A DNA stretch of 64,000 nucleotides from Polytrichum commune (taxonomy: Eukaryota > Streptophyta > Polytrichopsida > Polytrichales > Polytrichaceae): positions 31,111,501 to 31,175,500 of the forward strand of contig OX485805.1 in NCBI GenBank assembly GCA_950295325.1, read 5' to 3'. The first letter of the stretch is position 1. Each line of letters starts with the position of its first letter. The position numbers were made by a program, and so were the translations under genes. The notes under the pieces were generated by a model. It saw only the letters and a program-made list of their open reading frames with translations. It did not search any database and was not told the DNA's origin. Below, one piece after another: positions 14,588-63,200 of this stretch.

Positions 14588-15123
14588 GGGCCGCCTTACA
14601 CCTAGAGGCCGGGCCAATTCGTTGTGTAAGAGGCTTGAAATCCTCACTTGTGATTGGCCAAAAGGTTGAAATCGGTCCCAACCCCTTTACACCTAGAGGC
14701 CATGCCGATTTGGTGGTATGAATTTTTTAATAAAAAAATGCATGGTATGACATGGCCCGAGCTCATTGAATTGGGTGCACCCAAAATGGAAGCCCAATTC
14801 TTGGCCTTGGGGCCAATGTCAAATTTCAATTATAATTTAAAAAATAAAATAAAAAATGATTTTTTTAGCAAACCATATCCATTGGATTATGTGGAAATAT
14901 GAACGGCTCTATGCTAGATTATGCTAGATCCGTTGGATTATGCTAGATTTACTGAATCAACCTAGCTTCTTGGCCCTAAGGCCTTTACATGTGGGAAAAT
15001 TGACCCCCGTTATAATCTTATTATAATGTGCAGTTGAGGTTGGCTTCCAACCCAAAAGGGGCTGAAATTTCATGTAATCGGCCTCAAGGGGAATTGGCCT
15101 GGCCTCTGGGTATAAAGCGGCCC
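14588..15123. mobile_element. Harbinger-type MITE, copy 2 of the 12196 family (536 bp)
   Basis: Flanked by TAA (14585-14587 and 15124-15126). The ends pair as GGGCCGCCTTACACCTAGAG on the left with its near-complement on the right. The interior is colinear with 12196-12733 at high similarity, including the frame-like stretch from ATGGCCAGAAGG/ATGGCCAAAAGG onwards, so the short ORFs in both copies are coincidental conservation of repeat sequence. Confidence 0.85.
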
Positions 15124-15126
15124 TAA

Positions 15127-19390: not shown

Positions 19391-19535
19391 TCAATCACAT
19401 TCTGCTTGCATCAACAACAACACCCACATCCGCTGACATCTTGTCTGCTTTGCGTTTGGGTTCACTCCAGACTCCAAGCGAAGGAGAGTTGGGAGCCTCG
19501 TTTCTGCTGAGGTTTGAAACCGTCGCTTAGGTGCG

Positions 19536-43632: not shown

Positions 43633-44726
43633 GGTTTTTGATTTTGACTTTGATGTTAAAAACACTTGTGACCATCTTCCACAGGGGCTTGAAATTTTAT
43701 GTTACATGAATCCAACGCAATTGTGAAGTTCATAGTCATCAAATGCCACACCTTTCACATTGGTATGGAGCATATATGTAAGCCTAGTGAGGAATATAAC
43801 GGCAAAATTTTAGATACTATAATATAATTATGTTACGGGCAAGATGTCAACAAGTTCATCAGAAGACAATATTATCCCAAATTACGCTGTAGAATTCGGC
43901 ACTTTGCAAGTGGTACAAGTCATGATTGCAACAATGATCTTATTCATAGAAAAGTACACTATGGGCTCATACCAATAGTATGAACATGTTTGTGATGTTT
44001 ATTTGGAGTGGGTTGAGGAATTTTTGGTTTCCTCAAAAAAGGTCCCAATTATAAATGTGTTGCCCTCCTCAACAAAAGTTGATGCAAACCCATTAGGAAG
44101 GCATATAAGTTGAACACACACATTCTTGATATTCTTTTGAATCTCTCCTTTGGAACGTCAATTACCAAGAGGCAAATAATCTTTAAATTTTGTATCCGAA
44201 TATCCTATATTGCGACCGGTTGTTCAATGATGGTTTAAAATGTCTTATTCTGTATTTGCAACGGGCGTTTGTGGCACACTATTCTTCTGTATAGTTCATG
44301 TTTGAGGAGACCGTAGACAACAAAGTTTTTTAGTTTTACAATTTATTTGGACAATTTAAACACATATGTGACACATCTCATCCTGATCATGGTGTGTTTC
44401 ATATACTAGGACAAGTGGGCTAGTAAAAAAAAGTAACCATTTACAACCCATCTACGTTACCTCATTCCACCCTCCCACACGGAAATTCATATGAAATGGA
44501 TGCCACTCCACTCCCAGCTTATCACTACCCACATGTGTTTGTCGATACCTTCCCACTTCGGCTCAACTCGGCTAGTTACCTTAAACACTATATTCGTTAA
44601 ATTGAGACTTTTTGGGCATTTTGAGACATTCACATAAATAAGAACAAGGATAAATGGAACACATATTGGAGAAAGTTGTAAGATGCGAACACTTTGAAGC
44701 AGGTGTTTAGACCAAGAACCCCATAA
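43633..44726. other. AT-rich stretch with repeat similarity to 61.4 kb
   Basis: No gene. 44470-44580 shares blocks with 61440-61560 (ATATGAAATGGATGCCACTC, CACTCCCAGCT, TTCCCACTTCG), suggesting an old dispersed repeat. The inverted repeat matched to 16988-17112 lies just upstream, inside the GH1 intron. Confidence 0.4.
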
Positions 44727-45005
44727 ATAACTCATATTTGTGATGGTTTAGGGTGGGCAATCCAAATCTTAGACCACATTTAAGGGGAAACCTTAAAACA
44801 TTCATATTATTGCACACAAAATATTAGAGCTTGTATGAATATGGTTTAGGTAGGGCAATCCAAACCATAGATCTTATTGAAGGGTTAATATGTTAACCAA
44901 TATAATATTGCATACAAAATATTCCAAACTCATATTTGTGATGGTTTAGGTAGGGCAATCCAAACCTTAGACCATATGGAAGGGGAAATCATGTCTAACT
45001 TGTAT
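44727..45005 (+). repeat. Three degenerate tandem repeats of about 100 bp
   Basis: Each unit has TGATGGTTTAGGTRGGGCAA then TCCAAACCTTAGACCA and AAGGGGAAA, starting near 44730, 44835 and 44929. Non-coding. Confidence 0.65.
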
Positions 45006-45169
45006 TATTGCAAAAAAAAAACATACAAAGTGTGGCATGTAAAATGCATATCATGCTAACACCACACATGCATTGGATAGTGCGACCCAAAATGTTCTTG
45101 CCTATGGCCCAAAACCCTACGCCTACTATGGCCTATCTAGCCTCGGATACTACCTCTTTTTCTTTTGAT

Positions 45170-45943
45170 TCATTTTCTTTTGCTTTTTTTTTCTTTTGCC
45201 TCTTTTTCTTTTGCTGCAGCTTCTTTTGCTCGCATTGCTTCAACATTCCTGAAAATCTCCGCCCCGCGACTATAGCCATTCTTGGGGTGAACGCCATCAA
45301 TAACACATTTTGTATTCCGTCGGCCGCCCGAATTATACGACGAAGAATTCGAATACGATGAAGTGGACTGTCTTGCATTTCTGGTCATGGAGTAGAAACG
45401 CTCCAACTCGATGGACGCACTAGACCGCATAGGTTTACGGGTGGGAGCAACCTGCAACGCGTCAACGCACGAACACATGTGTTAGTTTAGGGAGGAAGAC
45501 CCAAACGTGTCACACATTCATTTTTTAAGTGCAAAATGATTGTAATGCGCGGATAACCATGTTTTTTTTTGGGGGGGGGGGGGGTTCACCTTGTCACCGG
45601 GGGCGTTCCCGTCGGAGTTGGCGAGGAGGGGCAAGGCATCCCGCAAAGGAATAGGAAGGGTTCCACTCTTCGTAGGCCGAGCGTCCATCCGCAGCCGCCG
45701 TTGAGGTGTACTACTGCCGCCGGGCCGAGAGGGGGATGTCCGGACGCATTTGCGATTTATGCCTTTGAGCGGTGACGGGGACGCAGATCGCCGGAAGATT
45801 TGCTTGGGTGGGGGGCTATCGACGACGCCGGCGTCAAGAGGCTCCTTGGAGTAGTCGATGGTTGACGCGGCGTCGTAAACGGTCTCGTAGAAGAAGCTCC
45901 CCAAGTCTGACTCGCTGACGACGTCAATCGAGGGCTCCAAACG
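45170..45943 (-). CDS. Two phase-0 exons of an unrecognised protein, 5' end not found
   Basis: Exon 45943-45590 (118 codons, RLEPSIDVVSESDLGSFFYE..APGDK) follows TTGGCTCCAG and ends at AAG|GTGAACC. Exon 45451-45170 (94 codons with stop, VAPTRKPMRSSASIELERFY..) follows GCGTTGCAG. Both are phase 0 and join cleanly. The product is Ser/Pro/Arg-rich with a Lys/Glu/Ala C-terminal helix (MRAKEAAAKEKEAKEKKSKR). No domain recognised. It follows the FCP1-like ORF on the same strand. These may be the last exons of a transcript whose first exon is unseen, or an alternative 3' end of the upstream locus. A long G/A homopolymer run at 45560-45585 lies in the intron. Confidence 0.5.
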
Positions 45944-46086
45944 CTGGAGCCAAAATTGGAACAAAACAAAACCCAAGGAAAAGGGGGGAGATAGAGCGCG
46001 TGAAAATCAAGATACATATGAAGCGTAAATTACACAAAATGGGTAGGCGCATATACACACACACACATACAAACACACGTACTGTC

Positions 46087-46899
46087 TCAAATGAGCTTGT
46101 TAAATTTCGCGTGAGATAACAACTCTCTGTACAAATGGTCTCGTGGATCCAAGTATCTCTCGCCTATGGGATTATTCCTAACAAAATTGTTTACGGGAAG
46201 TCCACTTCCCCAGAGCGCCTGGAGGTATTTACTAAGGTCTAACAAAAATCGGTCCCGGACCTTCTCGACCGTCCACGTAGGGCACACTATGAAGTTGGCC
46301 GTCGGGTTCAACATGTTCTTTGCGGCGCTGTCGTCCACCATGAGCGTGTTCTCGCGGGTGGGGCGGACGTCGTAGGGGACGCCTATCAAGGACGGTCGCT
46401 GGTCCCAAAAAATGGGCTTCAAGACCTTGAGGTATTGGGGGGAAGCGGGGTTGTTTGGTTTTTTGACGACTTTGCCGTCCTGTGTGTACAATATTCTACA
46501 GGCTTCCTGTGCTAGGACCATGCAGGGGGGCTCGATGCCCTTGAAGATGAACTCCACGACGGCATTGGTGTTCTCGGCCGTCATGGAGCTCCACACGACC
46601 ACCCACCATCGTTGTTGGGCGATCTGGAGGAAGGTCCGAAGCCACGGGCGGAGGTGAACTAGTTTGCTCTTTATGAACGTGGGCGGCCCGTCGTAATTAG
46701 CGTCCTCGGGCTTGCAAAAGGGCACTGTGGGGGCCCTAGGGCAATGAACGCACTGCACGAGGACACCGTTCAGGTCTAACACCAGGAATCGTTTCTTCGG
46801 CAGCGGGGGCGGGGCGGGTAAAACCGGGGGGGCCGCCGTGCTGCCCTCTGCGCTCCTTGGAGAAGAGCGTCGGGGAGCCGCTACGCTATGCTCCGAGCC
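46087..46899 (-). CDS. FCP1/NIF-type HAD phosphatase-like protein, first exon missing
   Basis: One open exon from an acceptor (GTATCCGCAG|GGCTCGGAG) at 46899 to TGA at 46087, starting in phase 0. A Ser/Pro-rich start leads to KKRFLVLDLNGVLVQ (HAD motif I), WWVVVWSSMTAEN (motif II), a lysine in KVLKPIFWDQR, and ENTLMVDDSAAKNMLNP (motif IV), then CPTWTV and a C terminus ..HAKFNKLI. This is the order of the FCP1/NLI-interacting phosphatase family, which acts on phospho-Ser/Thr proteins including RNA polymerase II tails. In motif I the second aspartate is Asn (DLN), so activity is doubtful. No ATG precedes the domain. The upstream donor at 47401 is also phase 0, so this could be spliced to the ParB-like gene. 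Confidence 0.7.
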   Translation of the reverse strand, partial: GSEHSVAAPRRSSPRSAEGSTAAPPVLPAPPPLPKKRFLVLDLNGVLVQCVHCPRAPTVPFCKPEDANYDGPPTFIKSKLVHLRPWLRTFLQIAQQRWWVVVWSSMTAENTNAVVEFIFKGIEPPCMVLAQEACRILYTQDGKVVKKPNNPASPQYLKVLKPIFWDQRPSLIGVPYDVRPTRENTLMVDDSAAKNMLNPTANFIVCPTWTVEKVRDRFLLDLSKYLQALWGSGLPVNNFVRNNPIGERYLDPRDHLYRELLSHAKFNKLI

Positions 46900-47169
46900 C
46901 TGCGGATACGAGCGAGAGAAAACGGGGGCGACTTATGTCATGCTATGTCCAAACGAAGCATTAAGGAAACGAGCGTTCTCGGTGCAAACACAAAAGCATT
47001 TGATTCATTTTGGAGGGGGTGCAACAAGGGATACAAGGGATACAAGAGCATACAAAATACATTCAAACACAATATACAAGTATATAGGAGTCAAAAATGG
47101 TGATTATATTATATACAATGCTCTATGTACATCTTGATTGGGGGAGCCGCGTTGAACGATGCGTTCAAA

Positions 47170-50100
47170 CTAGCCTACTTCTACATCTAGAAAAAATTGA
47201 AGAGACGGGCCGCCGTGATGAAGACTTCGTTGCAAAGCCGGGGGTAGGTGGACGAACGAATGGTCGCTGGGGGTGACGAAGGGCGCGAGTGCCGGGGGGG
47301 GCCTAAGTTCGTCCTAGCTAGGGGACACGACCAAGGCAAGAAGTCAAAGACCCAGGAAGTTTGGGTCGGCCGACCCAAACTGAGTGGGGTCAGTGCATTA
47401 CCTCGCCTTGGTCGTGCCTTGACGACGTTGATGCCGGCATCGCGTGCGCTGCCCCACCTCTGTCACCGCCGCCTCCGACGACGCCGTCAGCCGCAACCTG
47501 CTCCTGCAAAGGCTGACTGTCAGGCCTTTGTCCCAACCCAACCTCCGCATGCGCATCATGCATTGGTTCATCGACTGGGTTAGGAGTAGAGGTATCACCA
47601 GGCCCTTGCGGGCCTTCAACATCTAGCATAGGCTCGTCGACCGGGGTCTGATGGGGGACGGGGTTTGGGTCGGCCGACCCAAACCCTGCTGCTTGGCGAG
47701 GGTCGCTCTGCGACGCTGCAACGTCGGCACTGTTTGGGTCGGACGACCCAAACATGTGGGGGTCGTCCCGCTGGTGGTGTGGGGGCAAGAGGATGGGAGG
47801 CCGGAGCGGGGGGGGGGTGCCAACGAGCTGGACGCTCCGGGGACGCGCCAAAGGTTTGGATCATCCACCTGCTGCACAGGCGCGTAAGGACGGGCGTGCG
47901 GCTGCAGCAAATCCGCGAAGCTGAAGGAATGCTCCAACGCCGGCCGCGGGCGGATATCCTGTGGAGGGAAGCCTGCGGGCAAGTGAGGGAATGAACTCGG
48001 GGGAGCCATCACCAATCCCTGCGCCAGCATGCCCTGGATCACTTGCGTGATGAGGTCCGCTTGGGACGGAGTTTGGGACATCGCCCTTTGCCGCTCCTGC
48101 TCCAACAGGAGAGCCCTCAACTCCGCGACTTCGTTGCGGACAGAGGGTTCCTCGGCGGCAGCCCTCTGCAGTCGCACACGCTGCTCCTCGTCTCGGAGCA
48201 TTTTTGCGTTCGCCTCCTCCACGGTGAGGACCTCCGGTTTCACCCTCACATTCCCGGCGAACGCTCTGGGGGAGGCAGGATCAGACCTCAGCTTCTTGGC
48301 GAGTTCCATGTCGTCCTCGTCCTCGGAGCTTATTGCGATCGTCTCCTCCACCGCATAGTCCCCGTACAGCTTCTTCCCCTTCATCCTTCTACGCTCCCTG
48401 AAGGTGGCCGTCGCGTCCCTCGAGTACATATCCTTGGCGTCGTCCACCGTCAACGCGGGCACCAGCCTGCTCTGCGGCGTGGCAGGCCGCATGGCCTTCT
48501 TCCGCTGAGGGGCCTCGGATTCTTGAGTGAATCCTGTTGCCCCTTCCTCCACCTCCCCCTCCACTTTCTCTGCTTCCTCCTCCGCCTCCTCCTCGTCTTC
48601 CTCCCCCTCCTCCCCAACCCTGCCACCTGCTCCCATAGACGGATTGCCCGGATGCAACCCGATGAGCGGCTCTGGCAATTGAACGGGGGGCCGCATGGCG
48701 AATTCACCCGGGTTGATTCGCCTCGCAATATCCAAAGGATTCTCGCCCCCCTCGACGATCTCTTCGACGTAGGATCCGGGTATCCAGTCGAGGATGTCCA
48801 TTCTCTTGGCCAGCGCCTTTTGGGTCCTGTAGAATTGAACATCGGCATCCTCTACATAGGAGTAGATGTTCAACCCAGACATCTGCACAATCAAAATCAA
48901 TACTATTAGTAACACCAAATGAACATATAATGGAAAATGACTTCCAAACAAAATAAGAATAGTTAGTTTGGGTCGCTCGACCCAAACTATGCATGGCCCT
49001 AGTTTGGGTCGCTCGACCCAAACTATGCATGGCCCTAGTTTGGGTCGAGCGACCCAAACTGTGCATGCCCCTAGTTTGGGTCGTTCGACCCAAACCGAAC
49101 GTATAGGGACTTCTGGGTTTTCTGCTTACCATGGCTGCAAAAATCGGTTTGGACCCCCCGAAAACGTTGAAGATGCAGTCCCCTCTCTTCGTGAGGGTCC
49201 TCATCATCCGCAGGTAGAACTCCATGCGCAGCTCATCCGCGGGGTAGTTGGCGTACTTCGCCTCGTCATATAAGCTCATGCTGGTACCCAACCCTTCTTG
49301 GACTTGGAAGAGCTTTTCCATCCTGGCTATGGGATGGTTTGGCACCTTAAGCAGCTCAGCTTTGTACACGAAGTACAAACACAGCACGTTGACGATCTTC
49401 GTCTTCTTGTCTTTCAGCGTGCTGTACGCCCCCTCCGCCGGTGCAGCAACGTAGTGAGATTTCGAGACGGCATACTCCGGCTGCAATTTGCGCACGATCT
49501 CGTAAACCTGCTCTGCCCTTCTGTCCTCGACAATCCAGAGCCAGACGTCGACCTCCCTGAATTTGGGGCTGGCGTAGTCCACGAACTTCGACAAGAAAGG
49601 ATCGTAAAAAGGGGTGCTCATAGTCCCCTCGAATGAGGCTCCAGGGATGTTCCTGAAGTCTATCATTCCGAAGGCGAAGCGGTCCCCGGCTCTAGTCCTG
49701 ATCGCCTTCCTTGACTCAGAACCCGGCCAACCCTGGATCCTGAGAGGTTCGATAGTGACCATGTTGAATTGCGCATCGCCTTCGAAACTGACGATCTTCT
49801 TCTCCTTTATGAAGTTGGAGAAGGCCCGCACTGAGTGTTCGGGAAGCGCCCGGTTCCTCCCCCCCTTCACGAGCTTGGATCTGAGGAAGTCGTCTCCCGC
49901 CTCCCTCATGAGTGCCGCCATGGACGCACTGGTAAACTTATATTCGGCTTTGAAGGCCCTCCAGTGCGCCTCGTCGACCTCTCCGTCCACGATGAGCTTC
50001 TTCTCTGGCACAAGCTTGTGCAGCTCCTGGACGATGGTCGTCTTCTTCTTCCTGTTCTCCGTCCATTCCTTCATTGTGTAGCATGAAGGGACGAAGATCT

Positions 50101-52050
50101 TGGGTTTGGTGAAGACGATCTTAGGGTGGACCCAGCATCTCTTCGCCGTCGTCTCCACGTGTAGGATGTGGGACGCCGCTTTTCCCATCTCTGTCTCGGA
50201 GAGACCTTGAAGCGCTCTGAAGAACTCCCTCACCAGAGGCTTCATTTGCTTGAAGCGCGTAGTCTGGTTGAAGAGCATGCCGGTGTCGGGGTCCATGAGG
50301 TCCCCCGTCTCGTGTTTTTCAAAAACACTCTTCCATCTTGCCCATACGGAATCGGACGCTGTGATCAAATAGATTTCTCCTCTCAGCTCGTTATACTTTT
50401 TCTGCTTGTGGCTAGCATTGTCGATCGAGGAGAATTTATTGATCATTTGATATTTGAAGTCCTGCACAGGAAGACATTAGCACATGTTAGACAACACATA
50501 ATGGAAAAACAAATGCAACAGCAGTTTGGGTCGAACGACCCAAACTATGAACCTGGCGAAAACATCTTAACAATTTCAGAGTTTGGGTCGACCGACCCAA
50601 ACTATGAACCTGGGGACAATATCAAAATAATTTCAGAGTTTGGGTCGACCGACCCAAACTATCAACCTGGCGATGACAACAAAACAATGTAGGAGTTTGG
50701 GTCGATCGACCCAAACATACTCACCTCCCATTTGGGGTTCTTGTCTTTAGCATTCTCCCTTTTCTTGGGAGGCCTTCCATAAAACTCCCACACCTCCCTC
50801 GAGGCCATGATGTTTCTGATCCACGATGCCTGATAGGCCCTCTTTTTGTTCCCCATGTTGAAGAACCTGGAGATGTCGCTGAGGACCGTTTCGTTGTCCG
50901 ACCAAACCACCAAAGCCTTCCAAACTTTTAGCTTCTCCTTCTGGTTGTTCGGGTCGTCCCACTCGGTCATCAGCTGGATTTTTTTCGAGGCCTCCACACT
51001 GTGCTGCCCGTCAATCAGCCAGAAGTCTCCTTTAGAGATTGCCGGCCACATCTCAGGCGTCGGCATTCTTTTCAGCCCTTGTGGCATGACAACAATTGTC
51101 TGCCTGTCGTCCTTGAACTGCCCGCCCAAGATTTGAGCGACCATCCAGTCGACGTAGGCGTCCTCCTTGGCTCGGACGCACTTCTCTGGTGGCGCAAGGT
51201 GGCACTGCGCAATGTTGACCTCGAATTTGAAGTCCCTGCCCATGAAGAAGCAGTGCAGGCATTTTGTCTCGAAGTTGTTGTTTATTTTTTGTATTTCGCC
51301 TGCATCCACCTCTTGGCCAGGCTTCGGCATCCGGAGCTCCGGGGAAACAGGCTCGTCAGTCATCCCCGATGACTCTCTTCCCCTCTTGGAAGGGGTCGTC
51401 TGACGGCTTCCTGATGGCGTTGGCGTCTCGCTGTCAGCCGGCGTTGTTGTAGTGCTCGTCCGTCTCGAGTCTGCAGGGACCGCCCGCGGTTTCCTCACAG
51501 TTTGTGGTCTTGAGGACCCTGCGCCTTCTTCCGTCGTTGCCTTCCGCCTCACAGGCTGCTGCGTCTTGGGTTTGCTTTGCAGCGCCTTGTTGAGAACCGT
51601 GATAGCCTGTTTTAACTTCGTGAACCTGCTCGCAACCTTCGTGTTCGTTACACTACCATCTATGAATATGGCCTCTGGTTTTATGGTTTCAGGGTCGACG
51701 CAAGTCTCCTTGGCGTACAGGGGGTCGAAGGGCTCGGAGAACTGGTGCATGAACATGTGGACGTTCTGCACGGCGGAGTTCTCCAGTATCACGTCTACGT
51801 AGTCCCCGAGAGACTGGACGGACGCAACCTCCCATCCCGTCAGCGTTGCCCAGGTGTGCTGCTCGTGGGTCCCCACCTTCACCACGAATAGCAGCTTGAA
51901 CATGGATGCCTTCACCACCTGAACGGACCATGCCAAAACGACGCCATCTTTTGGGACGTAAGAATCGTCCTGTGGAGTTTCATACTCCTGCCAAAGGTGG
52001 TCTGGCGCGAGCATGAACCACCTTTCACCTGGTCTCTTTTTAGGGGCCAT
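47170..52050 (-). CDS. ParB-like / DNA-methyltransferase-like fusion protein (four coding exons)
   Basis: Exons are 52050-50725 (442 codons), 50461-49130 (444), 48882-47402 and 47313-47170 (47 plus stop). All junctions are GT..AG and phase 0, for about 1427 residues. The start ATG directly follows TTGGATTGCAG; a donor CAAG|GTAAGC at 52978 implies a 5'-untranslated first exon. About residue 315-360 has IVVMPQG..FWLIDGQHSVEA, like the GxxR core of the ParB/sulfiredoxin fold. Exon 2 ends GDCIFNVFGGSKPIFAAM and exon 3 opens MSGLNIYSYVEDADVQFY, matching the SAM-binding motif I to acidic loop of N4/N6 DNA methylases. The usual PPY motif is absent (GMIDFRN near 705). The tail has a Glu-rich run and a coiled coil. 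Exon 3 is 1481 nt, one short of in-frame; the likely slip is the G10 run at 47808-47817. Coding status is firm; domain names are by motif. Confidence 0.7.
47359..47380. repeat. Palindrome copy (centre GC) in the last intron
   Basis: Arms GTTTGGGTCG and CGACCCAAAC flank two central bases. It lies in the intron between the third and last coding exons of the ParB-like gene, 22 bases before the donor. Confidence 0.9.
47663..47753. repeat. Two palindrome copies inside an exon (47663-47684 and 47732-47753)
   Basis: Perfect 10-bp arms with centres GC and GA, 69 bp apart, in the third coding exon of the ParB-like gene. In the frame that reaches the splice donor they read FGSADPN and FGSSDPN. Confidence 0.9.
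48966..49095. repeat. 36-bp tandem array of the palindrome (4 copies) in an intron
   Basis: Copies start at 48966, 49002, 49038 and 49074 with centres CT, CT, AG and TT. The spacer is a 14-bp TATGCATGGCCCTA variant. It fills about half of the intron between the second and third coding exons. Confidence 0.95.
50524..50716. repeat. 57-bp tandem array of the palindrome (4 copies) in an intron
   Basis: Copies start at 50524, 50581, 50638 and 50695 with centres AA, AC, AC and AT. Spacers are TATGAACCTGGCGA..-type and unrelated to those of the 36-bp array. It fills the intron between the first and second coding exons. Confidence 0.95.
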
Positions 52051-52077
52051 CTGCAATCCAAGAAATCGAAACTGTGA

Positions 52078-52858
52078 GTTTCGGTCGATCGACCCAAAGT
52101 ATTGCAATGTGCATTTAACATTTGGAGGATTGACCCAAACATTTACTTAATTTTCAAAGTCGTTTTAAAAGATCTTTTAGATTTTAAAGTGTGGTTTAGG
52201 TGGTCACCCTGTAATGTTTGGGTCGAGCGACCCAAACATGATGAGGCTGCAAATTTAGGTATCTCAACACATTCATTTCAGACTGCAATGTTTGGGTCGA
52301 ACGACCCACACAATTACTTAATTTTGGAAGTTCTTTTATATTTTACAATGTGGTTTAGTTCTTCTCCCTGTAATGTTTGGGTCGAGCGACCCAAATATGT
52401 TAGGCTGCAAATTTAGGTAGCTCAACCCATTCATTTCAGACTGCAATGTTTGGGTCGAACGACCCAAACATTCACTTAATTTTCAAAGTTCTTTTATATT
52501 TTACAATGTGGTTTAGTTCTTCTCCCTGTAATGTTTGGGTCGAGCGACCCAAACATGTTAGGCTGCAAATTTAGGTACCTCAACCCAGTCATTTCAGTCT
52601 GCAATGTTTGGGTCGAACGACCCAAACATTTACTTAATTTTTGAAGTTCTTTTATATTTTACAATGTGGTTTAGTTCTTCTCCCTGTAATGTTTGGGTCG
52701 AGCGACCCAAACATAATGAGGCTCCAATGTTTGGGTCGCTCGACCCAAACAAGAGGCTGCAATGTTTGGGTCGAACGACCCAAACATTTAGTTCATTTTA
52801 GGCTGCAATTCAAATATTTATTATATTTTAATATGAGTTTGGGTCGTCTCCCCAAACT
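52078..52858. repeat. Palindrome array with 158-bp higher-order period, in the 5' intron
   Basis: Copies start at 52216, 52290, 52375, 52448, 52533, 52606, 52691, 52729 and 52764, with degenerate ones at 52078 and 52837. Centres alternate AG and AA in a two-copy unit of 158-159 bp, with one extra CT copy at 52729. The whole array lies between the inferred 5' leader donor (52978) and the ATG exon of the ParB-like gene. Confidence 0.92.
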
Positions 52859-52978
52859 ACTGTGTTTCCAGATGCATGTTTAATGCTTGGGCAACATATA
52901 CAATGCTTATGCATTGTATATGTAACAGGAACCTAAAGGGAATGATGCAAATTGTGTGCACTGATGCAAATTGCTTAC

Positions 52979-53638
52979 CTTGTCTTTCAAACTCTTGAAA
53001 GCTGCTCTCACAATCTGCTTCTTACAACCAGACTCAGAAACTCTGTTGTGGCACTAAAGAACAACTCTCACAAAGATCTCAGAAACACAATGAATCTCTC
53101 AAGCACCCTAAAACTTTCTCACAAACCCCCTGATTCTTGCAAACTCAGGCCTAATTTGAAAGACCTCTACATTTCTATCACACTCGACCGTGCTCACTTC
53201 TACTCAACCTAAAATCACTCCATGCATGAATTTTACAAAACAAGTAAGGAGTTCAACACAATAAACCGCTCCGAACTCACTCAAAGCTAACACTCTGGAC
53301 CAAGAAGAGAGAATAAGAAGAGGAAGACAATAACACGAGGAATAGAATGAGAGAAGAGGAGGAGAAGCATCAGAGAGGAGGAGAGGAATGAAGGAGAAAG
53401 AAGAATGAAGGGAAGCGGCGCGACCAAGACAAAAGCAAAAGGTGCGAGAGGAAGCGCTTGGCGCGGCGCTATGGAAAGCGGCGGCGGCGTTTCCAAGAGC
53501 GGCGCTTGGCGCGGAGGAAGAGAGGAAGAAAAAGAGAGAAAGAAAAAAGAGGAGGGGAGAGAAGGAGAGAGCGGAAGGGGTCACCCTAAACCCTCGAATC
53601 CGGGCCATTAGATTGCGCCGGGCCCATCAACGGCTCAG
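52979..53638 (-). other. Probable 5' leader and promoter region of the ParB-like gene
   Basis: On the minus strand the sequence ends in GACAAG|GTAAGC, a strong splice donor. Upstream is CT/GA-rich sequence typical of plant leaders, with GC-rich GGCGCGGCG boxes at about 53416-53520. The in-frame sequence before the donor has a stop and no ATG, consistent with untranslated exon 1. Open frames here on both strands are compositional. Confidence 0.45.
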
Positions 53639-53707
53639 AAGCCTCGCGGGCCAACACCTTGCCAGGTGTCGACACCTCCTTGGTTTAGGTGGTTGCCCGC
53701 GAGGCTT
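53639..53707. repeat. GC-rich stem-loop with an inner palindrome
   Basis: AAGCCTCGCGGGC at 53639-53651 pairs with GCCCGCGAGGCTT at 53695-53707, and adjacent AAC/GTT extend the stem. The loop contains AGGTGTCGACACCT, a perfect 14-bp palindrome. It differs in sequence from the GTTTGGGTCG palindrome family nearby. Confidence 0.6.
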
Positions 53708-54360
53708 GTGGTGTTGACACCTGCCACCCTAGGGAGATTGCCTTCCTGGTTGTCCTTGCCCCTAGGTGCGGGACATAGGAGGGCCGGCGCCTCTCTTGGC
53801 CGCCCGGCCCCGGCCTTCTAACCCGCTATTCATTAGCGGCAATTCAATACCAGTCAAAAACCTACGTGGACTAAGGTATTCCACAAAATTAACACCATCA
53901 CCAACTCATATTTTAATGGTGTTCAATTGAATGATCACCCGTTGGAATTGATAACATCGTTGAATGTAGCCATTATCGTTTTGGTGTATGAATAATGTAA
54001 TTTATGGAATCATATGAGAGTGTTACAAAGTCTAAGAGGAGTAAGTCATAATTATATTGCAATCCACAAAGGCAATTACACGGTGCAATAATATAAATAT
54101 GGTAACCATTCAAATGGTTAACAGTTTAGGATTATGTATTGTAATTTATATGATGGTTGTTGGTAGAGGACAATGCTCTAGTCTATAATGGATACCCTAA
54201 CAAGTAGCATTAGAGTGAACATTAATATATGTACTTAGAAGTTCACATTTGAAGTACATGGGAGAAACAAATGATTACAAATGTATCTACTGCAACCCCA
54301 TGGAGTTCACATATCATATGAAGTCATTTAAACATTCAGTTTGATGTTTGATGATGCCTG

Positions 54361-54392
54361 AACCCTAAACCCTAAACCCTAAACCCTAAACC
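54361..54392 (+). repeat. Interstitial telomere-type repeat (CCCTAAA, about 4.5 units)
   Basis: Perfect CCCTAAA units, then a variant CCTTAAA. This is the complement of the plant TTTAGGG telomere motif. Single short tract in unique AT-rich DNA, so interstitial, not a chromosome end. Confidence 0.9.
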
Positions 54393-55199
54393 TTAAACAA
54401 CACAAACCATAACTGGATGGCACATAGGTCAAATGACATGGGCCTTGGTGCTTGTAGTTTCCAATACAAATGTATATTGTCATCACAACATCCTAATTCA
54501 CAAACGTGAAAGATGGATGTGTGGTTTTTCACGAATGAACGCACTAAAGGAAATAAACGATATTGTGCTCACAAGTAGGTGATACAATATTAACCTATAA
54601 CCTTGTCACCTGGTAAGAAAAGCATAAGAACTAGATTATAATGGATAGGATGTTGTTCATGTTAACATGTTATTTGGAATAGTGAAATATTATATATTAA
54701 TTTAAAGTAGATTTCATGTTGTGAATGATATGAGGACATACCTTTTGAACTTTGCATGTTTTGCTCACACACATTGGTAGAGTTCAAGGGACTTCACGAT
54801 AGGTTCAAACATCCTTGGAAGATTGAACGTGCCAAATGTCATTTGTGGTTTAGGGTTCCATTAATGACTTCCACATAGGTACTAGGTTATTGTCACACTT
54901 GGAGTCTTGAGGATGAAGCAATATTGGGTGCACACATTACAACACAACATATGTTCTTTTAATTAGCAGAAATTGAAAGTTGGCCAAATTATTCAAGTTT
55001 GTCATGGCATTAATTATTTGTTTTCAAAATATAAGTCCTCATGTGAGAGTCTAAATAATAGCATTAACTATTATATTTAGTGACTTTTAGTATATGAAGT
55101 TTTATAATACATGCACATCTTTTGTCAATATATTGTTTGAAATATACCATAATGTTTGACTACAAGTAGAGTAAAACCCCTTAATAGATATAATCTTAC

Positions 55200-55530
55200 A
55201 TATTGTCATAGGGTTATTGGTATTTAGTGTATGCGTTCATATGTAGTGTATCAAAACCTTTATATCCTTTTTAGTTATATGATAGTTAGTGTTTGATACA
55301 CTTAAAACGAACGCATACACTTCCCATTACTAACCCTATGAGAGTAAGTAACATTAAATGTAAACTCAAACACTAAATATCCACTATGGTGATATATGGA
55401 AGTTACATATAGGGATTTAGTATTAGTAAGGATGTGAGAAAAATATACAACAATGATAAAAGGAGAAAGGAGATGGCAATAGGGAAGGTGGTGGTGTATT
55501 CATGTATAAAACTAATTATGAAAGAGTTGA
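55200..55530 (-). repeat. Inverted copy of the dispersed repeat at 30640-30930
   Basis: Read on the minus strand it shares GATATTTAGTGTTTGAGTTT, ACATTTAATGTTACTTACT and the preceding CCTTACTAATACTAAATCC with the copy at 30.6-30.9 kb, with many point differences. Confidence 0.5.
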
Positions 55531-55908
55531 AGAATAGTGTTGACCAAGTTAGGGTGGTAACAACTTTAAATATATGTTGAATTATTCATTTGGTGGTTGG
55601 GGCAACGAAGAGCCAAGCTAAATATACATTCTCTATTATTGACAAGAAGCGGGAAATTGAGTCAGAAGGTTTGAATTAACATCCAAAGGAGACCAGGTGG
55701 GAAAGGCATCCAAAGAGGATGCCCAAAGCGGAGGCGGGTAGTATAAAGAGCCCAACCCCCCCAAATGCTGGTTCTTTCTTTCATGTCCCAATCCTGAGAT
55801 TGCTGCAAGCTCTCTAAGTTGGAGCTGTAATACACGGTTTGTATACGCTTCCATTCATGAGCAGCTAATTACAACAAGCATCTATGAGTTCAGTTGTCCC
55901 AAATAGGT

Positions 55909-55917
55909 TATAAATAG
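55909..55917 (+). promoter_or_regulatory. Candidate TATA box before the 78-bp array
   Basis: TATAAATAG, a full consensus match, 46 bp before the first palindrome of the array and 1.3 kb before the ATG at 57213. If used, transcription would begin near 55940 and the whole array would be in the leader or first intron of the DUF7869-type gene. Confidence 0.4.
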
Positions 55918-55962
55918 ATTAATAGAGCATCACCCGAATAAATAGGCGGATTTTGCGGAATT

Positions 55963-57017
55963 GTTTGGGTCGGTCGACCCAAACCCAGCCTTACAGTGTG
56001 GGTGCTCTCTGTATTGAGCCAGAACCCATCCTGCCTCAAGGTTTGGGTCGATCGACCCAAACCCAGCCCTACAGTGTAGGTGCTCACTGTTGTGAGCCTG
56101 AACCCATCCTGCCTCATGGTTTGGGTCGATCGACCCAAACCCAGCCCTACAGTGTGGGTGCTCACTGTTGTGAGCCTGAACCCATCCTGCCTCATGGTTT
56201 GGGTCGGTCGACCCAAACCCAGCCTTACAGTGTGGGTGCTCTCTGTTGTGAGCCTGAACCCATCCTGCCTCATGGTTTGGGTCGATCGACCCAAACCCAG
56301 CCCTACAGTGTGGGTGCTCTCTGTTGTGAGCCTGAACCCATCCTGCCTCATGGTTTGGGTCGATCGACCCAAACCCAGCCCTACAGTGTGGGTGCTCACT
56401 GTTGTGAGCCTGAACTCATCCTGCCTCATGGTTTGGGTCGATCGACCCAAACCCAGCCCTACAGTGTGGGTGCTCACTGTTGTGAGCCTGAACCCATCCT
56501 GCCTCATGGTTTGGGTCGGTCGACCCAAACCCAGCCTTACAGTGTGGGTGCTCTTTGTTGTGAGCCTGAACCCATCCTGCCTCAAGGTTTGGGTCGATCG
56601 ACCCAAACCCAGCCCTACAGTGTGGGTGCTCATTGTTGTGAGCCTGAACCCATCCTGCCTCATGGTTTGGGTCGATCGACCCAAACCTAGCCCTACACTG
56701 TGGGTGCTCACTGTTGTGAGCCTGAACCCATCCTGCAAAAAGGTTTGGGTCGCTCGACCCAAACCCAGCCCTCTAAGTGTGGGTGCTCCCTGTCGTGACC
56801 CAAAACCCATTCTGCCAAAAGGTTTGGGTCGCTCGACCCAAACCCAGCCCCTAAGTGTGGATGCTGTCTGTAGTGAGCCTAAACCCATCCTGCCAGAAGG
56901 TTTGGGTCGCTCGACTCAAATCCAGCGCCTAAGTGTGGGTGCTCTCTGTATTGAGCCTGAACCCATCCTCCCAAAAGGTTTGGGTCGCTCGACCCAAACC
57001 CAGCCTCTAAGTGTGGT
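55963..57017. repeat. 78-bp minisatellite, 14 units, each with the palindrome
   Basis: Palindromes start at 55963, 56041, 56119, 56197, 56275, 56353, 56431, 56509, 56587, 56665, 56743, 56822, 56900 and 56978. The spacing is 78 bp except one of 79. Centres are AT or GT in the first ten and CT in the last four. The spacer reads CCAGCCCTACAGTGTGGGTG, then CTCACTGTTGTGAGCC and TGAACCCATCCTGCCT. Because 78 is a multiple of three and the unit has no stop in some frames, long artificial open frames arise on both strands. Confidence 0.97.
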
Positions 57018-57212
57018 TGGGATCTGGGTGCCGGTGTGGCCACTGGCCTTCCGAAACCTTTACAAGCCCAATGGCATAGCAGTCATATGAACTTGTATGA
57101 GCACTGAGTATTTGCAATTTTGTTTATATATGATGGTTTTTTTGTTCTTCGATTTGAACCTACAATTTTTGTGATTTTAAGACAATGTTCAATGTTCATG
57201 TGTGTAGGCAGA

Positions 57213-60200
57213 ATGGATGGGTTTAGTGAAATAGGGGATTGGTCATCTGATGACATGGCCACTTGGCCATCTGCATCTGATGATGACCTAGACATTGTCG
57301 GGGAGGCTACTATGGCTGACAGTGCGGATGAAGATCATTTGGATTTACCTTCGTCTTCCGTACCGCAGTGTCCCATTGTTGAATGTACGGGACTTTCAAG
57401 GGCTTCGTGGGTGAATTTGGAGGTGATACTTCTTAACGATAGTGGAGTTGTTGTGGCGGAGGGGATTTGCCGTAACACCCATCCGCAAGATTGCATTGAT
57501 GAAAACCCGCTTGGCACTGAGGACGTTGGGGTTGTCATATTGGAGTCGGTCGTTCATTCCGAGGTGGATCCCACTCATAGGTTCTCCCTCCGCAGGTGGC
57601 CATTGAGGAATGTCACAATTGATGGAGTTAGCTTGCGTGAACATGAGCAACGACACATGCAAATCGAAAAGGAGGTGCAATCAAACATGCGGCCGCGCAA
57701 GGGTCAAAGAAAGTACGATACATTGGCACGTCCTGCTCCGTCTGCAACTGATTGTAAACGTCAAAGGTTGCTCGGGGAGGAGTCCATTAGAGAAGTTGCC
57801 ACAAAGGATTGTTGTGTGCATCGTTGTTGCCAATTGTTTCCAAGGGATAAATTGAAGGTCATCCGCGAAGAAATGTGGCTTGGAGATTTCCGTCTAAGAT
57901 CCACAAGAAAACTTGATGTCCATAGGGCGATACATGTGAATGGGACGGGTCGCAAGGTCATCACCATTGAAAGCATAGACGTGTGTTGTAAGGCATGGTA
58001 CACCATTCACGGTGTGTCGAAATCGGACTTTTATAGACAAGCTGCTTATGCCAAGGAAGGCCGCCGGTCCCGTCACCATGGTAACGTGGGTTTAAAGAAG
58101 CCTAGGGAAGCAACAAGGCAAGCAACGGCCACTCTAGCAACCATCATTGTCCCTCTTGCCGATGCAATGCCGCACAAAACACGCACACTCACAACCGGTG
58201 AAAAGGTTGTGGAGAAAGTTCTTCCCACAGGCACAAAATGGAAAGACATATTGTTGGACGTTAATGCAGTTGGCGAGAAGATTGGGTTGGAGCCAATTTC
58301 ATTGTCAAAATTGAGTGCAATCAAGAAACAAAACTTTAGCGAATACATTACAAAAAGACGAGGGGACAAATTTGCCAGGTGCTCTAATTGCGAGAAGTTG
58401 AAGCGCCTCCGGGATGCACACACGATGGGCACCGAGTCATATGCAGCGCATCAATTGAACTATTTCAAGCACGTAAACATGCAAGAGGCACACCGTAATG
58501 ATTACTACACAAATAGAGCTTTGTCCATCTCCAGGCCCTTGGAGGTTCTTACGGTCATCCATGACAAAATGGACCATGCCAAAACAGCCTCCCCATGTTT
58601 TGCAAATCGAATCAAGGCCACGGATGGGTTTTTCAAGTTGCCTGTATCGGTTACAGGTGAACTTCGAAACAATGTCATGACATACCCTAAATGTTGTTGT
58701 ATTTTATTCCGTGATGTACTGGAGAACATGGATTCCTTCATAATGGTTTATTCATACATAGATGCTAATCACGTTGGGTTGGCATTGCAGGAATGATTGC
58801 ACATGGACACGGTGATGTCAAATTTGCTCATTATGCTCTTGATTTGTATCCAGCGGATTCAAACCACACGATAGGATCATTTGCAAGGCTTTTACGTGAT
58901 TTAGAGAAACCACCAGCCTATTCTTCAGGATTGTTATTTGAGAACACGGGTTCAACACCTTTATATGAAGCGGTGTTGGATGGAAAAGATGTATGCTTGC
59001 ATTCGTTGCCCGAGCCACCCAATGAACCCGTGATTGCCAAGAAGTTGCCTCCAACTTTGCGTGTCCAATTGGACAATTGTGCCAAGGACAATAAAAGCAG
59101 ATATGTATTTGCATATTGGTCGTTGTTGGTTGCGAAAGGCATTTTCAAGGAGGTTTTTGTGTCCTTCCTATTGGTAGGCCACACGCACGATGATATTGAT
59201 GCATCTTTTGGGCGGTGGAGCATGAAGTTGCGGGAGGAGGATTTCCCTACAATTCCATTATTGATGAAGTCGTACATGGATTTGGAGAACGTTCCCGTCA
59301 TCCCCCATATGATTGAGGAGGTGCCAGACTTCAAGGCATTTATAGAACCTTATATTCGAAGTGGAGCTCACCGATTGATCGGGCATACGAAGGCACAACA
59401 ATTCCGCTTCTATATGCGTGACGATGGTGTCCCGGCCATGCAATACAAGTTGTTGTGCACGTCACAAGACTGGAGCCCGCCGGAGGGTCTTCTTGTGTGG
59501 CGCGTGGATGCGGATGGAAAGACCATGTTACCGGATGGGGAGCCTAGGCCTTGTAAGCCAATAGCCATGAAGAATTTGGAGGATATTTTGAAAGGTATAT
59601 CAGGCTTCATACAATATTGGGAGAGTTTGAAAATAGCGGATGTTGGCGGATCATGTTGGCATCGTTATGGGAGTTGGATACATTATTGGACACGTGTTCG
59701 TGCCGCCTTGGCAGACCTCCACCAAGATAGCCCTCATACTTTGAGGCATGGATTTTGGCCACAAACACGAGTCGATGTACAAGCTTCAGAGCCTAGTCTT
59801 TTGGGAAATGGAGAGGTTCGAGAGGAGTTTGATGTGGACGACCATTACGTGGGGCCTGCTAGTAGTCGTCCCCCACCATCTTTCCGCATTGCAGTGGATT
59901 GTCATGAAGGTTATATGCTCATTTTGCGTCCTGGAGACGAGACATATGCGAAGCCAGTGTGGGTGGCAAGAGCTTTGTCCAATCCCAATTTTGTAACTTC
60001 CAGCCCTCATTTTCGACAAATACAAGTGGAGTACTATCGACCGACAGCAAGGAATGAAGATGTGATTCGGCATTATACAGGCTGGGATACAAACCCTAAC
60101 TTTCGGTGGAAGGTGGATTCTGAGCACGGTCCATCTTGGGTAGATACAGATTCCATATTCATAGCATGGAAACCACGGAAACACCATAGTGGATCAGTGT

Positions 60201-60277
60201 CCATCCCTCAAAAGTACATAACTTTTGCAAAAGACAACCTTGCTCGGATTGCAGAAGAAGCAACCCACGTTGAATGA
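57213..60277 (+). CDS. DUF7869-type protein, probably transposon-derived (two exons, 976 residues)
   Basis: Exon 1 is 57213-58656 and exon 2 is 58791-60277. Donor TTACAG|GTGAAC and acceptor GGCATTGCAG|GA join as SVTGMIAHGHGD, restoring a continuous domain. An acceptor TGTGTAG at 57207 suggests an untranslated upstream exon. The N terminus is acidic (GDWSSDDMATWPSASDDDLD). A middle Cys/His block has CCVHRCCQLF and VCCKAWYTIHGVSKSDFYR. The C-terminal domain has VQLDNCAKDNKSRYVFAYWS (about residue 573) and LLVGHTHDDIDASFGRW (about 611), the signature of the domain catalogued as DUF7869. That domain is multi-copy in several plants and invertebrates and resembles DDE/RNase-H-like transposase cores; enzymatic function is not established. 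The reading frame is intact. Start chosen as the first ATG after the acceptor. Confidence 0.8.
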
Positions 60278-63200
60278 GAAGTTGGTAGGATTGTGTTAGC
60301 ATGATTATAGTTTAATACGTAATTATAGCAATATAAATTACACATATGTGTGCTCTTCAAAATTGGGGCAGAGTTTGGGTAGAACTTACGAATACTATAT
60401 TGTTTGGAGTTGGATGAATATCCATTTACTATATTTCAAGCTGCAATTGAAGTTCATCTTATTATTATGCTTGGGACTATATTCTCGAATGAAGAAACAT
60501 GCATTTATTACATGCACTTTGTATGTTGCAATGTCTATATTCTATTGAACATGCTAATAATAGAAATCATTTTATATATATTTTTGGGTGAAACTTGTTT
60601 GAAGTGCTCTACCCAATGTGTTTTTGTTGATGAAGTTGGTGTCGAGTGCTCTACCATATGTGCTTATGTCCGCACATCATAGATTTGGGATATTAGAACA
60701 TATAATATAATTGAGATTGTTGACAATATAGTTTCGGGCCTCTTCAAGTTCTTTGATCCATATATTAATTTGAGACTAGAGAAAGTCTCAATTTAACGAA
60801 TATAGTGTTCTTAGTGAAAAACCATGTTCAGCGCATGCAATTCAATCTCTTGAAAACATATGCAAACTTTAGCATTCACTCTTGGAGCCACACCAAATCA
60901 CATATATACCACTCAAATATAGGTATCTTAATAAGAAAAGTAACCAAATAAGGATTATTCACCAAATTAAGTGCTATGAAACATCACCCAAGTTTGAACA
61001 ACCACCTTTGCAAATTACTCCACCCCATGATCAATGCCCATATTAGCTTACGAGAACTTCCGCCCTCCCACTTCCGCAAAAAGTGGGAAGTATTTAGTGT
61101 ACCTCCCATTCATCCAAATAAAAGCTTTCAAATAATATGCAGCCTTGAAGTTACATTTTGAAGTTGATTTGACACTGGAATTAGCTTTAAAGATTTGAAG
61201 TAGTCTACATGAGATATATAAGATGAATTGGCAACAAATCTATGGGGCGTTCAAGTTTTCATGTTGGATGGATAAGAGATACACTATTATAGATAATTCC
61301 CTCTCTCCCACTTCCACCCTCCCCTTTGAAATTTGCTGATATAATATGCTCTCCCCTTGCTCTGGCCATGCAAATGTCAAGCTCCACCGTTGAGCTCCAT
61401 CCCCCGCCTCCACCCTCGAGTTCTCTCCACTTCTCCACCCTGCCTCATTTCTACGTAACCTTCCCTCACCGAAATCTCGTATGAAATAGCATCTACGCCA
61501 CTCCCAGCTAAGTATCCTTGTTTCAAAGTTGTTCATCGTTAATAGCTTCCCACTTCGACTACACTCGCCATATTTGTTTGCGGGACATAGTTGCAGCTCC
61601 ACAAGTGGAAGCTGCATTTGAATATCCACACTAGTTACTAGCTAGCTTGAGAGAAGCTGAGAGAGGATGTGAGTTTGTTAGTCAACGCTTTTTGGAACCT
61701 TAATCTGTTTGATCTTGAGGAAACTTTAAATGTTTCGCATGCATTGAGGTGTCGAGGATTCTTAAATTTTGCCATTGTTGATGAACTTGTGTAGGTATTG
61801 AAAAGGATCCTCAACGATATCAAAGATACTATGACGGGGTGCGTTCCACCATCGGAGAACTCACGTGCTGCTCCTGATCATTAGTTCTGCCCGAAGCTTT
61901 GTGCGGGACTGACTTCAAGTGAATCGGACACAATTTTCTCACGTTATAAAACGTATGGGTGGATATGTTCCTTGTAGCAGTTACAGTTTCTGATTGTAAA
62001 GTGGTGTCATCGTAGTCATAGTAGTACTGCCAACTGGATACGCTCCAAATCACTTGTGCTGTAAAGGTCGTGCCTTGTTTATGCAACGAGAGTTTATATA
62101 TGTATGAATCTATGATCAGCTGTTTTGGATTTCACTGGTGTAACTTGCTCACTTGAATCTTCTCTCCGATTGTACTGATGATTTGTCTCATCCATCTAGT
62201 GCATATTTTGAGATACTCCTGCCGAGGAGTTTGTCCGGATCTCTGACATACCTCCGCCACAAAATACTAAACTAGGTTGCACTATAAATATTACATCTTC
62301 ATTGTGCATGCAACGAGCAGGGCTACGCCAATAATCTGTTCATATATATACATTGTATCTATTTCTACTCTTATGTTTTTTTCCAATAAAACAATTGCTA
62401 TAGTCACGTTATCGAGTAGTGTGGTTATCTGACGTGTAACTACATGGAGTAATTCGATTGCATACCAATTTCAATCTTGGCGTCATAACGTGCTGGTCTG
62501 TGACTGTCCAGTGTAGAATATCGACTACTGTAATTCATCGATATACTGAGCTGGACCGATGACGTCGTAATCAAGCTGAAATCCGGCGCAGGATAGACTC
62601 ATTCGATACTGAAAGGTACAAATTTGCAATGCAACAGCCACCAGTCGATTCAAACAGGACCTGCCAAAGGGAAGCCGGGTTACGATGTGGCGAGCTTACA
62701 AAGTTCAGAATCTCACTTTCTAGATCCACTTGCAATAGGGGCACCAATAATTCTGCAATTAGACAAGTGATTAGACTAGTTCTAGATATTGGAGTGCAGG
62801 AAAGATGGCCAAGGGTACAAAAAAACCAAGATGTCCAAAATTGGAGTCCTCAATAAACCCTAGTCCTGGTAAAATTGAAAAAGCACACCTTCTGTCTCGG
62901 AACAAATTGCGCACACAATTTCCAGCAGATTTCTAGAGAAAAAGTCTCGGTCACATGATCAATGTCCAAGGACATGGGAGACACTTGCAAACTCTTTACA
63001 ATCGAATCGAAAACTATTTCATGGTAACCACGCAAGATCACGAGGAGGTTCACGAAGAGTTGAGTTCGATGAAATTGGATACTGCTTATCGACAGGATTG
63101 GTCGAAGAAAATTTCTAAATAAATTGATGCTAGAACTCTCAAGATCAGATAACCATAGGAAGAAATACTTGAATATTGGTAGCTGAAACTAGTATCTTCG

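Follow-up and report, generated by a model that had tools for sequence, protein, structure and literature searches.

The presence of one 22-bp palindrome in several tandem arrays with different spacers raises the question of what has multiplied it here and what preserves its letters. In the window (the whole 64-kb stretch of moss DNA analysed), we found 35 palindromes with at most three mismatches between 47359 and 56999, and none elsewhere in the window; in 31 of the 35 the arms are exact. This bears out an earlier note on the locus, which had placed about 35 copies within 47359..57017. Chance does not produce such a set (0 in 100 dinucleotide shuffles). The site is dyad-symmetric, with two 10-bp arms and a 2-bp centre, GTTTGGGTCG(A)..(T)CGACCCAAAC.

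The palindromes and their host element

All palindromes of the window lie within one 16,226-bp DNA transposon, 44584-60809 (copy W of family I), so that the earlier observation of the sites was sound but had missed the element that encloses them. The element shows two marks of a cut-and-paste (TIR) transposon: inverted repeats at its termini and a target-site duplication whose length is constant (4 bp). The features are given below; introns were drawn from GT-AG signals in the sequence alone.

44580-44583, no strand: target-site duplication CTTA, left (4-bp duplication)
44584-44611, plus strand: left 28-bp terminal inverted repeat AACACTATATTCGTTAAATTGAGACTTT, matching the right end at 28/28 positions
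45518-46006, minus strand: small ORF kept in copies A, B and C
46087-46932, minus strand: ORF with NIF-type phosphatase domain PF03031 (Pfam E=4.2e-15)
47359-47380, no strand: single palindrome, orthologous in copies A, B and C
47663-47753, no strand: two palindromes (47663, 47732), within 47640-47850, a stretch without codon-like conservation
47850-48882, minus strand: exon C, 3' boundary approximate
48883-49129, minus strand: predicted intron GTAAGC...TGCAG with four palindromes, period 36 (splice sites from sequence)
49130-50461, minus strand: exon B, 444 aa
50462-50724, minus strand: predicted intron GTGAGT...TGCAG with four palindromes, period 57 (sequence signals; homologs compared)
50725-52050, minus strand: exon A, 441 aa, with a conserved DGQHS motif
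52051-52978, minus strand: predicted 5' intron GTAAGC...TGCAG with a 158-bp double-palindrome array and degenerate copies (splice sites from sequence)
55640-55870, plus strand: putative TATA promoter and putative first DUF7869 exon, with a weak alignment to family II (BLAST E=4e-4)
55963-57016, no strand: 78-bp array of 13.5 units with 14 palindromes, of which 13 are exact, upstream of the DUF7869 coding region
57213-58665, plus strand: DUF7869 gene, N-terminal coding exon, its 3' end placed approximately from homologs
58791-60277, plus strand: DUF7869 gene, C-terminal exon carrying PF25273 (modelled, through a homolog, as a DDE-type transposase)
60782-60809, minus strand: right terminal inverted repeat, 28/28 match to the left end
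60810-60813, no strand: target-site duplication CTTA, right (4-bp duplication)

The palindromes occupy apparently non-coding segments, some of them predicted introns and others lying 5' of two divergently oriented genes. The four periods that had been reported were all recovered: 36 bp at 48964-49095, 57 bp at 50523-50716, 158 bp at 52169-52799, with two palindromes per unit, and 78 bp at 55963-57016. In each array, the units repeat together with their own flanking sequence. Further palindromes of other sequence are also repeated nearby.

The product of the DUF7869 gene models as a DDE-type transposase, based on the structural model of a homolog, with modest scores. Protein matches were obtained in Ceratodon and Physcomitrium, while a PDB sequence search with the DUF7869 profile returned one chain only (E=0.86) and one with the exon-A profile returned no chain. 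No Pfam family was found in the ORF spanning exon B, and our literature search for DUF7869 found no paper.

Family I is a high-copy DNA transposon of 16-18 kb. Its 28-bp terminal repeat has 1,029 + 1,031 matches genome-wide at up to three mismatches; the inverted repeats form exact pairs in copies A and C, and copy B carries three mismatches at one end. A 4-bp duplication was present in 14/14 elements checked, 13 of which had been chosen for exact ends. On one contig (C1), at least 34 adjacent pairs of exact ends were listed, 21 of them spaced at 14-19 kb, 12 longer and 1 shorter. A 1.5-kb insert in copy A was considered as palindrome-linked and rejected, as it appears to be an unrelated element, flanked by 5-bp duplications, whose insertion point fell within a palindrome.

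The palindrome forms a single locus within the window, as had been described, but genome-wide it is a feature of repeats, with 9,231 exact sites in the 408-Mb genome. Among 50 sites sampled on C1, 41 lie just inside exact transposon ends, six match family I by sequence and three belong to a second repeat family (II); no sampled site or cluster on C1 fell outside these two families, the sample being a small part of the 9,231 sites. It had been proposed that a common background repeat with no association with the gene family would count as a refutation; the motif is indeed common, yet every sampled copy is tied to the two repeat families. Family II has inverted ends, whose placement is provisional, and both its ends and its genes differ from those of family I; no match was found between its ORFs and family I proteins, and no target-site duplication was seen in its flanks, checked by eye. 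A putative TATA promoter adjoins the palindromes in both families, and family II seems to share the promoter region of family I. Searches of viral contigs and of contigs from prokaryote genomes gave 0 matches to the palindrome, in keeping with its place in a plant transposon, and no report of the motif (including GTTTGGGTCG) was seen in the literature searched, judged largely by titles.

Conservation of the arms, the centre and the surroundings

The palindrome clusters hold the same positions in different element copies, which allowed nine orthologous palindromes to be compared between copies W and C. Their arms are identical at 179/180 bases, versus 54.5% identity in intron sequence and 49% at third codon positions, in a comparison between two subfamilies of one genome in which array copies are non-independent. 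This comparison shows that the arms are preserved far better than sequence that appears neutral, and we regard it as strong evidence of selection on the arms. The expectation that arms might mutate as fast as spacers is thus contradicted, and the bound site under constraint that the earlier note had listed among its options is now well supported. The centres of the same palindromes are identical at 8/18 bases, and no compensatory base pair was observed among the nine. Two of the 11 palindromes in the left half of W have no counterpart in copy C, and copy B lacks a third.

Within the arrays, the 36-bp array alone gave no significant difference between arms and spacers (p=0.17), in a test that took in 3/4, 3/4 and 10/14 units of the 36-, 57- and 78-bp arrays, left out units that include a copy with two arm mismatches, and has a 158-bp row inflated by a 1-bp shift. 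CpG depletion was dropped as support, since the pooled observed/expected value of 0.26 is driven by the 78-bp array: outside the palindromes the ratio is 0.36-0.45 in introns and 0.07 in the 78-bp array (all units), compared with 0.75 and 0.50 at the element ends and 0.50 in window positions 1-44000.

All nine central dinucleotides listed previously were found, but the centre is not free genome-wide. A centre with neither A first nor T second occurs at 653/9,231 exact sites (7.1%) versus 9/16 = 56% expected for two random, equal centre bases, with the genome copies being non-independent. This bias indicates that in most sites one or both halves read GTTTGGGTCGA. Such partial constraint on the centre speaks against treating the site as nothing but two half-sites.

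In homologous introns elsewhere the site seems to persist, either as it is here or in altered form, as judged from read-through peptides, which do not fix the DNA letters. Three of 25 read-through tails show neither site form, and no read-through peptide was found in DUF7869 homologs (0/120). From these peptides we infer a lineage-specific form of the site, with predicted changed arms GTTTCGGKCG and a second predicted variant, GTTTCGGGCG.

A candidate binding site and its alternatives

Based on the conservation and layout of the palindromes, we consider it probable that they are dyad-symmetric protein-binding sites which selection has preserved and local tandem duplication has multiplied, resembling the targets of VANC proteins rather than transposase end sites. 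A sequence-specific dimeric protein, most likely encoded by the transposon, would bind the sites along the element, and local tandem duplication would have given each non-coding segment a separate array. Selection would retain the sites and favour additional copies, so that the flanks of each segment would be duplicated with the site and then drift.

The binder could also be a host protein, since family II carries the same site with ORFs unlike those of family I. Here, a transcription factor, insulator or origin protein would bind the site and two unrelated repeat families would exploit it, consistent with the putative TATA promoter beside the site in both. We regard this as unlikely, as sites at host genes would be expected but none of the sampled C1 sites, a small part of the total, fell outside the two families, and related elements elsewhere appear to have changed the site.

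Slightly less probable still is binding in cis by the element's own transposase to assemble a transposition complex. The model is offered by the subterminal repeats of En/Spm and Ac, where an element-encoded protein binds short sites that recur no more than a few hundred bases from the ends; as in those elements, the sites here are short, repeated and internal to a DNA transposon, and would be bound by a protein of the element. The encoded DDE-type protein (by model), the tie of sampled sites to repeat families and the single pair shorter than 14-19 kb among the 34 listed on C1 agree with it. On the other hand, the exact palindromes nearest to the ends of W lie 2.78 kb and 3.81 kb away, and in four elements the nearest is 2.69-5.71 kb from either end, so that, unlike in En/Spm, the sites are not subterminal; the site is also shared by family II despite its other ends and genes. 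A 4.8-kb deletion derivative (L047) has both ends and a 4-bp duplication with zero exact palindromes. We dropped it as proof that the palindromes are dispensable for movement, because its junction appears unique (of 572 candidates, 40 were scored and one of these matched over the full length) and the palindromes may therefore have been lost after insertion.

We give somewhat less credence again to RNA hairpins, in which the palindromes would fold in pre-mRNA and affect splicing, stability or small-RNA production. Many palindromes do lie in predicted introns, and one in 50462-50724 begins a few bases inside the predicted splice donor, a position found in W and many homologs. Pairing would suffice for a hairpin, yet the arms retain their exact letters where neutral DNA has come close to saturation, compensatory pairs are lacking in the W-C set, no Rfam family reached threshold in 44500-61000, and the two central bases could form a loop only if inner pairs opened. 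That the palindrome is a very small unit, mobile or copied in its own right and spreading into spacers, as the earlier note had suggested from the same core in different spacers, and as the other repeated palindromes nearby might suggest, is very improbable, since array units repeat with their own flanks and the clusters examined lie inside larger repeated elements, at positions kept between subfamilies, with no sampled cluster outside the two families.

Comparison with known transposon systems

The arrangement that we propose, a selected protein-binding site spread through the non-coding DNA of the element, finds its closest analogue in VANDAL21 and VANDAL6 of Arabidopsis, in which short motifs repeated through non-coding parts are targets of VANC anti-silencing proteins (Hosaka et al. 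2017, PMC5735166; Sasaki et al. 2023, PMC10398659). VANDALs, as described there, have motifs in introns and other non-coding DNA of a DNA transposon and tandem repeats that differ between related elements, in both of which the moss element is similar; the motif is lineage-dependent, and the unrelated transposon AT9TSD1 can share it. The moss motif is, as an analogue, likewise non-coding, tandem-amplified and, judging from the peptides, lineage-specific. VANC motifs are 8-9 bp long versus the 22-bp dyad here, and the term 'palindrom' is absent from the text of PMC5735166. Unlike VANDALs, the moss element has a DUF7869 gene and 4-bp duplications, and its likeness to VANC systems is one of motif layout. 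MULE (VANA transposase) elements make long duplications of about 9 bp. The 4-bp duplications and the lack of a MULE domain in the ORFs scanned with Pfam, where DUF7869 was found instead, place the element outside VANDAL/MULE.

The Sola superfamily has 4-bp duplications, terminal inverted repeats and a DDD-type transposase, can exceed 15 kb and has been reported from the moss Physcomitrella (PMC10741241; PMC9033089). The moss element shares the 4-bp duplication, the terminal inverted repeats and a length of more than 15 kb, a likeness by description and not by transposase sequence; the Sola descriptions cited, unlike the element here, mention no palindromic internal arrays.

By analogy with VANC and VANDAL, the most likely effect of binding, which we put forward tentatively, would be to keep the non-coding DNA of the element open and transcribed against host silencing. 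Next to it, with a good deal less weight, stands a role in activating or repressing the genes that the element carries. It is conceivable, if rather doubtful, that a palindromic self-recognition code evolved independently in moss DNA transposons outside MULE/VANDAL: an element-encoded dimer on dozens of 22-bp sites in introns and promoter-proximal DNA would block silencing, the code would differ between elements of related species, and an unrelated repeat family would have gained a promoter-plus-array module and use the code in trans.

To our knowledge, VANDALs are the only transposons for which sequence-specific anti-silencing has been documented in detail. The moss element would offer a candidate for such a system from a different transposon group and plant lineage, and its site is long and unambiguous. 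The dyad site can serve directly as bait for its binder, and the repeated evolution of transposon sequence codes that separate self from host becomes testable.

The palindrome and its transposon

A scan of the window recovered the 22-bp palindrome GTTTGGGTCG-NN-CGACCCAAAC, two 10-bp arms around a 2-bp centre, 35 times at ≤3 mismatches (31 exact), always within 47359-56999, and 100 shuffles of the window sequence gave no match. Tandem Repeats Finder returned four arrays with periods of 36, 57, 158 and 78 bp, so that both the roughly 35 copies and the periods claimed in the earlier note are borne out. An inverted repeat, with a perfect 28-bp match as its core, flanks the palindrome region on both sides, and CTTA is duplicated just outside both terminal repeats. 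This 16,226-bp DNA transposon (W, 44584-60809) has further full copies (A, B and C; together family I) on contig C1.

Features of W (window coordinates) and full copies of family I
44584-44611: left terminal repeat AACACTATATTCGTTAAATTGAGACTTT; reverse complement at 60782-60809
47359: single palindrome
47640-47850: palindrome-bearing stretch without codon-like conservation
48883-49129: predicted intron with palindromes; GT/AG ends read from sequence
50462-50724: predicted intron with palindromes; GT/AG ends read from sequence
52051-52978: predicted intron with palindromes; GT/AG ends read from sequence
C1:610757-628840: copy A; 4-bp duplication AAGT
C1:1174918-1193533: copy B; 4-bp duplication CCTT; 3 mismatches in one terminal repeat
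C1:2112817-2129768: copy C; 4-bp duplication ATAA

Further palindromes of W lie in the 5' region of the divergent DUF7869 gene. The distance from terminal repeat to nearest exact palindrome is 2.69 to 5.71 kb in the four elements, and the palindromes are therefore not end sites. Duplications of 4 bp also border all nine further exact-ended elements picked among the matches listed and a deletion derivative, L047, for which the flanking sequence gave CACT; this makes 14 of 14 elements checked. Genome-wide, the terminal repeat occurs 1,029 times forward and 1,031 times reverse at ≤3 mismatches (reversed control, 0). Among the matches listed on C1, 34 adjacent exact-end pairs lie <60 kb apart, 21 of them at 14-19 kb, 12 longer and one shorter.

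W also carries an NIF-type phosphatase ORF (46087-46932; kept in A, B and C at 75-98% amino acid identity), an 82-nt foldback, 73% complementary, between its two divergent gene sets (55185-55362), and six tandem CCTAAAC units (54357-54398), which we take to be plant telomere repeat. An element of ~1.5 kb with ends TGTGAG...CTCACA and, by eye, 5-bp duplications is present in copy A (element position 14791-16308) and at C1:464437 and 475449; one insertion is in the DUF7869 gene and one inside a palindrome. Close to W, DDE_Tnp_4 ORFs (41296-42408) represent a different DNA transposase. Elsewhere in the window, ORF 27393-27965, with a secreted-peptide-like start (by eye) and several RLVPTPCWQDPNCREDPHPP-type repeats, overlies a 105-bp tandem repeat, and ORF 19518-19997, presumably oleosin-like, adjoins a 181-bp tandem repeat (18854-19420).

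Two families sharing one palindrome

The genome-wide search proposed in the earlier note (407.8 Mb, 64 contigs, the window on C3) gave 9,231 exact palindromes and 13,295 at ≤2 mismatches, with none for the reversed control. Their placement is known among the matches listed, sampled on one contig (C1) of 64. Sequence comparison placed the ten clusters among those listed in its first 4 Mb in two repeat families: family I accounts for five (616, 1180, 2115, 2479 and 3964 kb), and a second one, family II, for the other five (438, 455-478, 2154, 3440 and 3489 kb). A second sample comprised 50 atypical-centre palindromes among those listed over C1 0-45.4 Mb: 41 lie, by position, on the inner side of an exact terminal repeat and ≤20 kb from it (random points, 1.8%), another six, from four loci, have sequence matches to family I, and three are within family II loci. 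No palindrome outside the two families was found among those sampled on C1.

The family II loci at C1:433-441, 455-483 and 2151.9-2164.3 kb are similar to one another, and their palindromes, the same as in family I, are mostly in 32-bp arrays. One locus has inverted ends that differ from those of family I, at which no target-site duplication was seen by eye. Family I proteins had no match in family II loci at E 1e-3, nor did nine ORFs scanned from these loci contain Pfam families. With exact palindromes masked, similarity between the families at E 1e-3 was restricted to two short colinear stretches (E=4e-4) just upstream of palindrome arrays, which share a TAGTATAAA-like box (TAGTACAAA in copy C), a CT-rich tract and a segment resembling a first exon. 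These alignments hint at a promoter and array module that the two families may have in common.

Two other repeated palindromes were observed around family II. CCCTGTGCGTTAACGCACAGGG, with a fixed centre, lies upstream of the putative family II promoter, with six near-perfect copies each in C1:461700-478066 and C1:2158352-2159351; GTGTCTCGGTACCGAGACAC has 13 copies with fixed centre TA at C1:468608-471926, in the 455-485 kb region.

Conservation of arms, centres and surroundings

Similarity between W and A is 96.7-99.9% in long stretches. Across the left 7.3 kb it is 95% between B and C and 76-79% between the W/A and B/C pairs, which makes the comparison of W with C informative. Nine of the 11 exact palindromes of W's left part align with a palindrome in C, and in these, counted by hand with one end base shifted by an alignment gap scored as present, 179/180 arm bases agree, compared with 8/18 centre bases and 54.5% of the intron outside palindromes (134/246 aligned bases, 87 gaps). 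This contradicts the possibility, raised in the earlier note, that arms mutate as fast as spacers (Fisher p ~1e-31 for arms vs spacers and 2e-11 for arms vs centres, array sites not being independent). The two palindromes without counterpart are array units (element positions 4383 and 5941); with them included, identity over all intron arms is 88.6%. The three single palindromes agree at 60/60 arm bases, and eight pairs between W and B at 157/160. In exon A, a predicted coding part of W, identity between W and C is 49% at third codon positions, against 88-93% at first and second positions.

Over all units of the 36-, 57- and 78-bp arrays, off-consensus bases number 2/440 in arms, 12/44 in centres and 75/893 in spacers; the 36-bp array on its own shows no significant difference between arms and spacers (p=0.17). 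Under gene conversion among copies, centres should presumably be homogenised as well. CpG content offers no clear further support for selection on the arms, with observed/expected ratios outside palindromes of 0.36-0.45 in the three introns and 0.07 in the 78-bp array, and of 0.75 at the left element end, 0.50 at the right end, 0.81 for the exons and 0.50 for window positions 1-44000.

The two central bases, described earlier as free, are not so genome-wide: all but 653 of the 9,231 exact palindromes have A in the first central position, T in the second, or both, so that one or both half-sites usually read GTTTGGGTCGA.

Exact arms predict the peptides VWV.RPK, FGS.DPN and LGR.TQT, one in each of three frames. 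A recognisable exon end is present in 33 of 48 exon-A homologs, 25 of them with ≥10 residues of intron read-through. Fifteen of these tails carry an exact-arm peptide and seven a variant of it, VSGDRPK and VSVARPK being examples, and neither form is present in three (one ends inside VVWVD); such peptides leave DNA letters unfixed, and some homolog records may be from the window's own species. Exon-B homologs gave the exact peptide in 13/49 and a variant in 2/49, DUF7869 homologs the exact-arm peptide in 0/120. The predicted variant GTTTCGGTCG-NN-CGACCGAAAC is absent from the genome in a genome-wide search, and for one of its carriers, P0024, identity reaches at most 71% among the 92 copies scored there, out of 1,089 candidates, so that P0024 is probably from another genome. 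The site thus seems to change symmetrically between lineages, as far as these peptides suggest.

A putative protein-binding site and the VANC parallel

The palindrome is most likely a dyad DNA site for a putative dimeric protein, maintained by selection in transposon non-coding DNA. In each segment a site would be duplicated together with its local surroundings and then kept by selection as the remaining sequence drifts; local duplication and selection on the site would thus yield arrays with unrelated spacers without any special mobility.

The nearest functional parallel is the VANC system. According to PMC5735166 and PMC10398659, VANC21 binds YAGTATTAY motifs in the non-coding DNA of VANDAL21, introns included, and the tandem repeats formed by VANC targets vary from one related element to another; VANC6, related to VANC21, recognises a different motif, also present in the unrelated AT9TSD1. 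Unlike VANDAL, the family of W has 4-bp duplications and DUF7869, which rule out a VANDAL identity for the window element. By analogy with VANC, the effect of the sites may be anti-silencing rather than transcriptional control.
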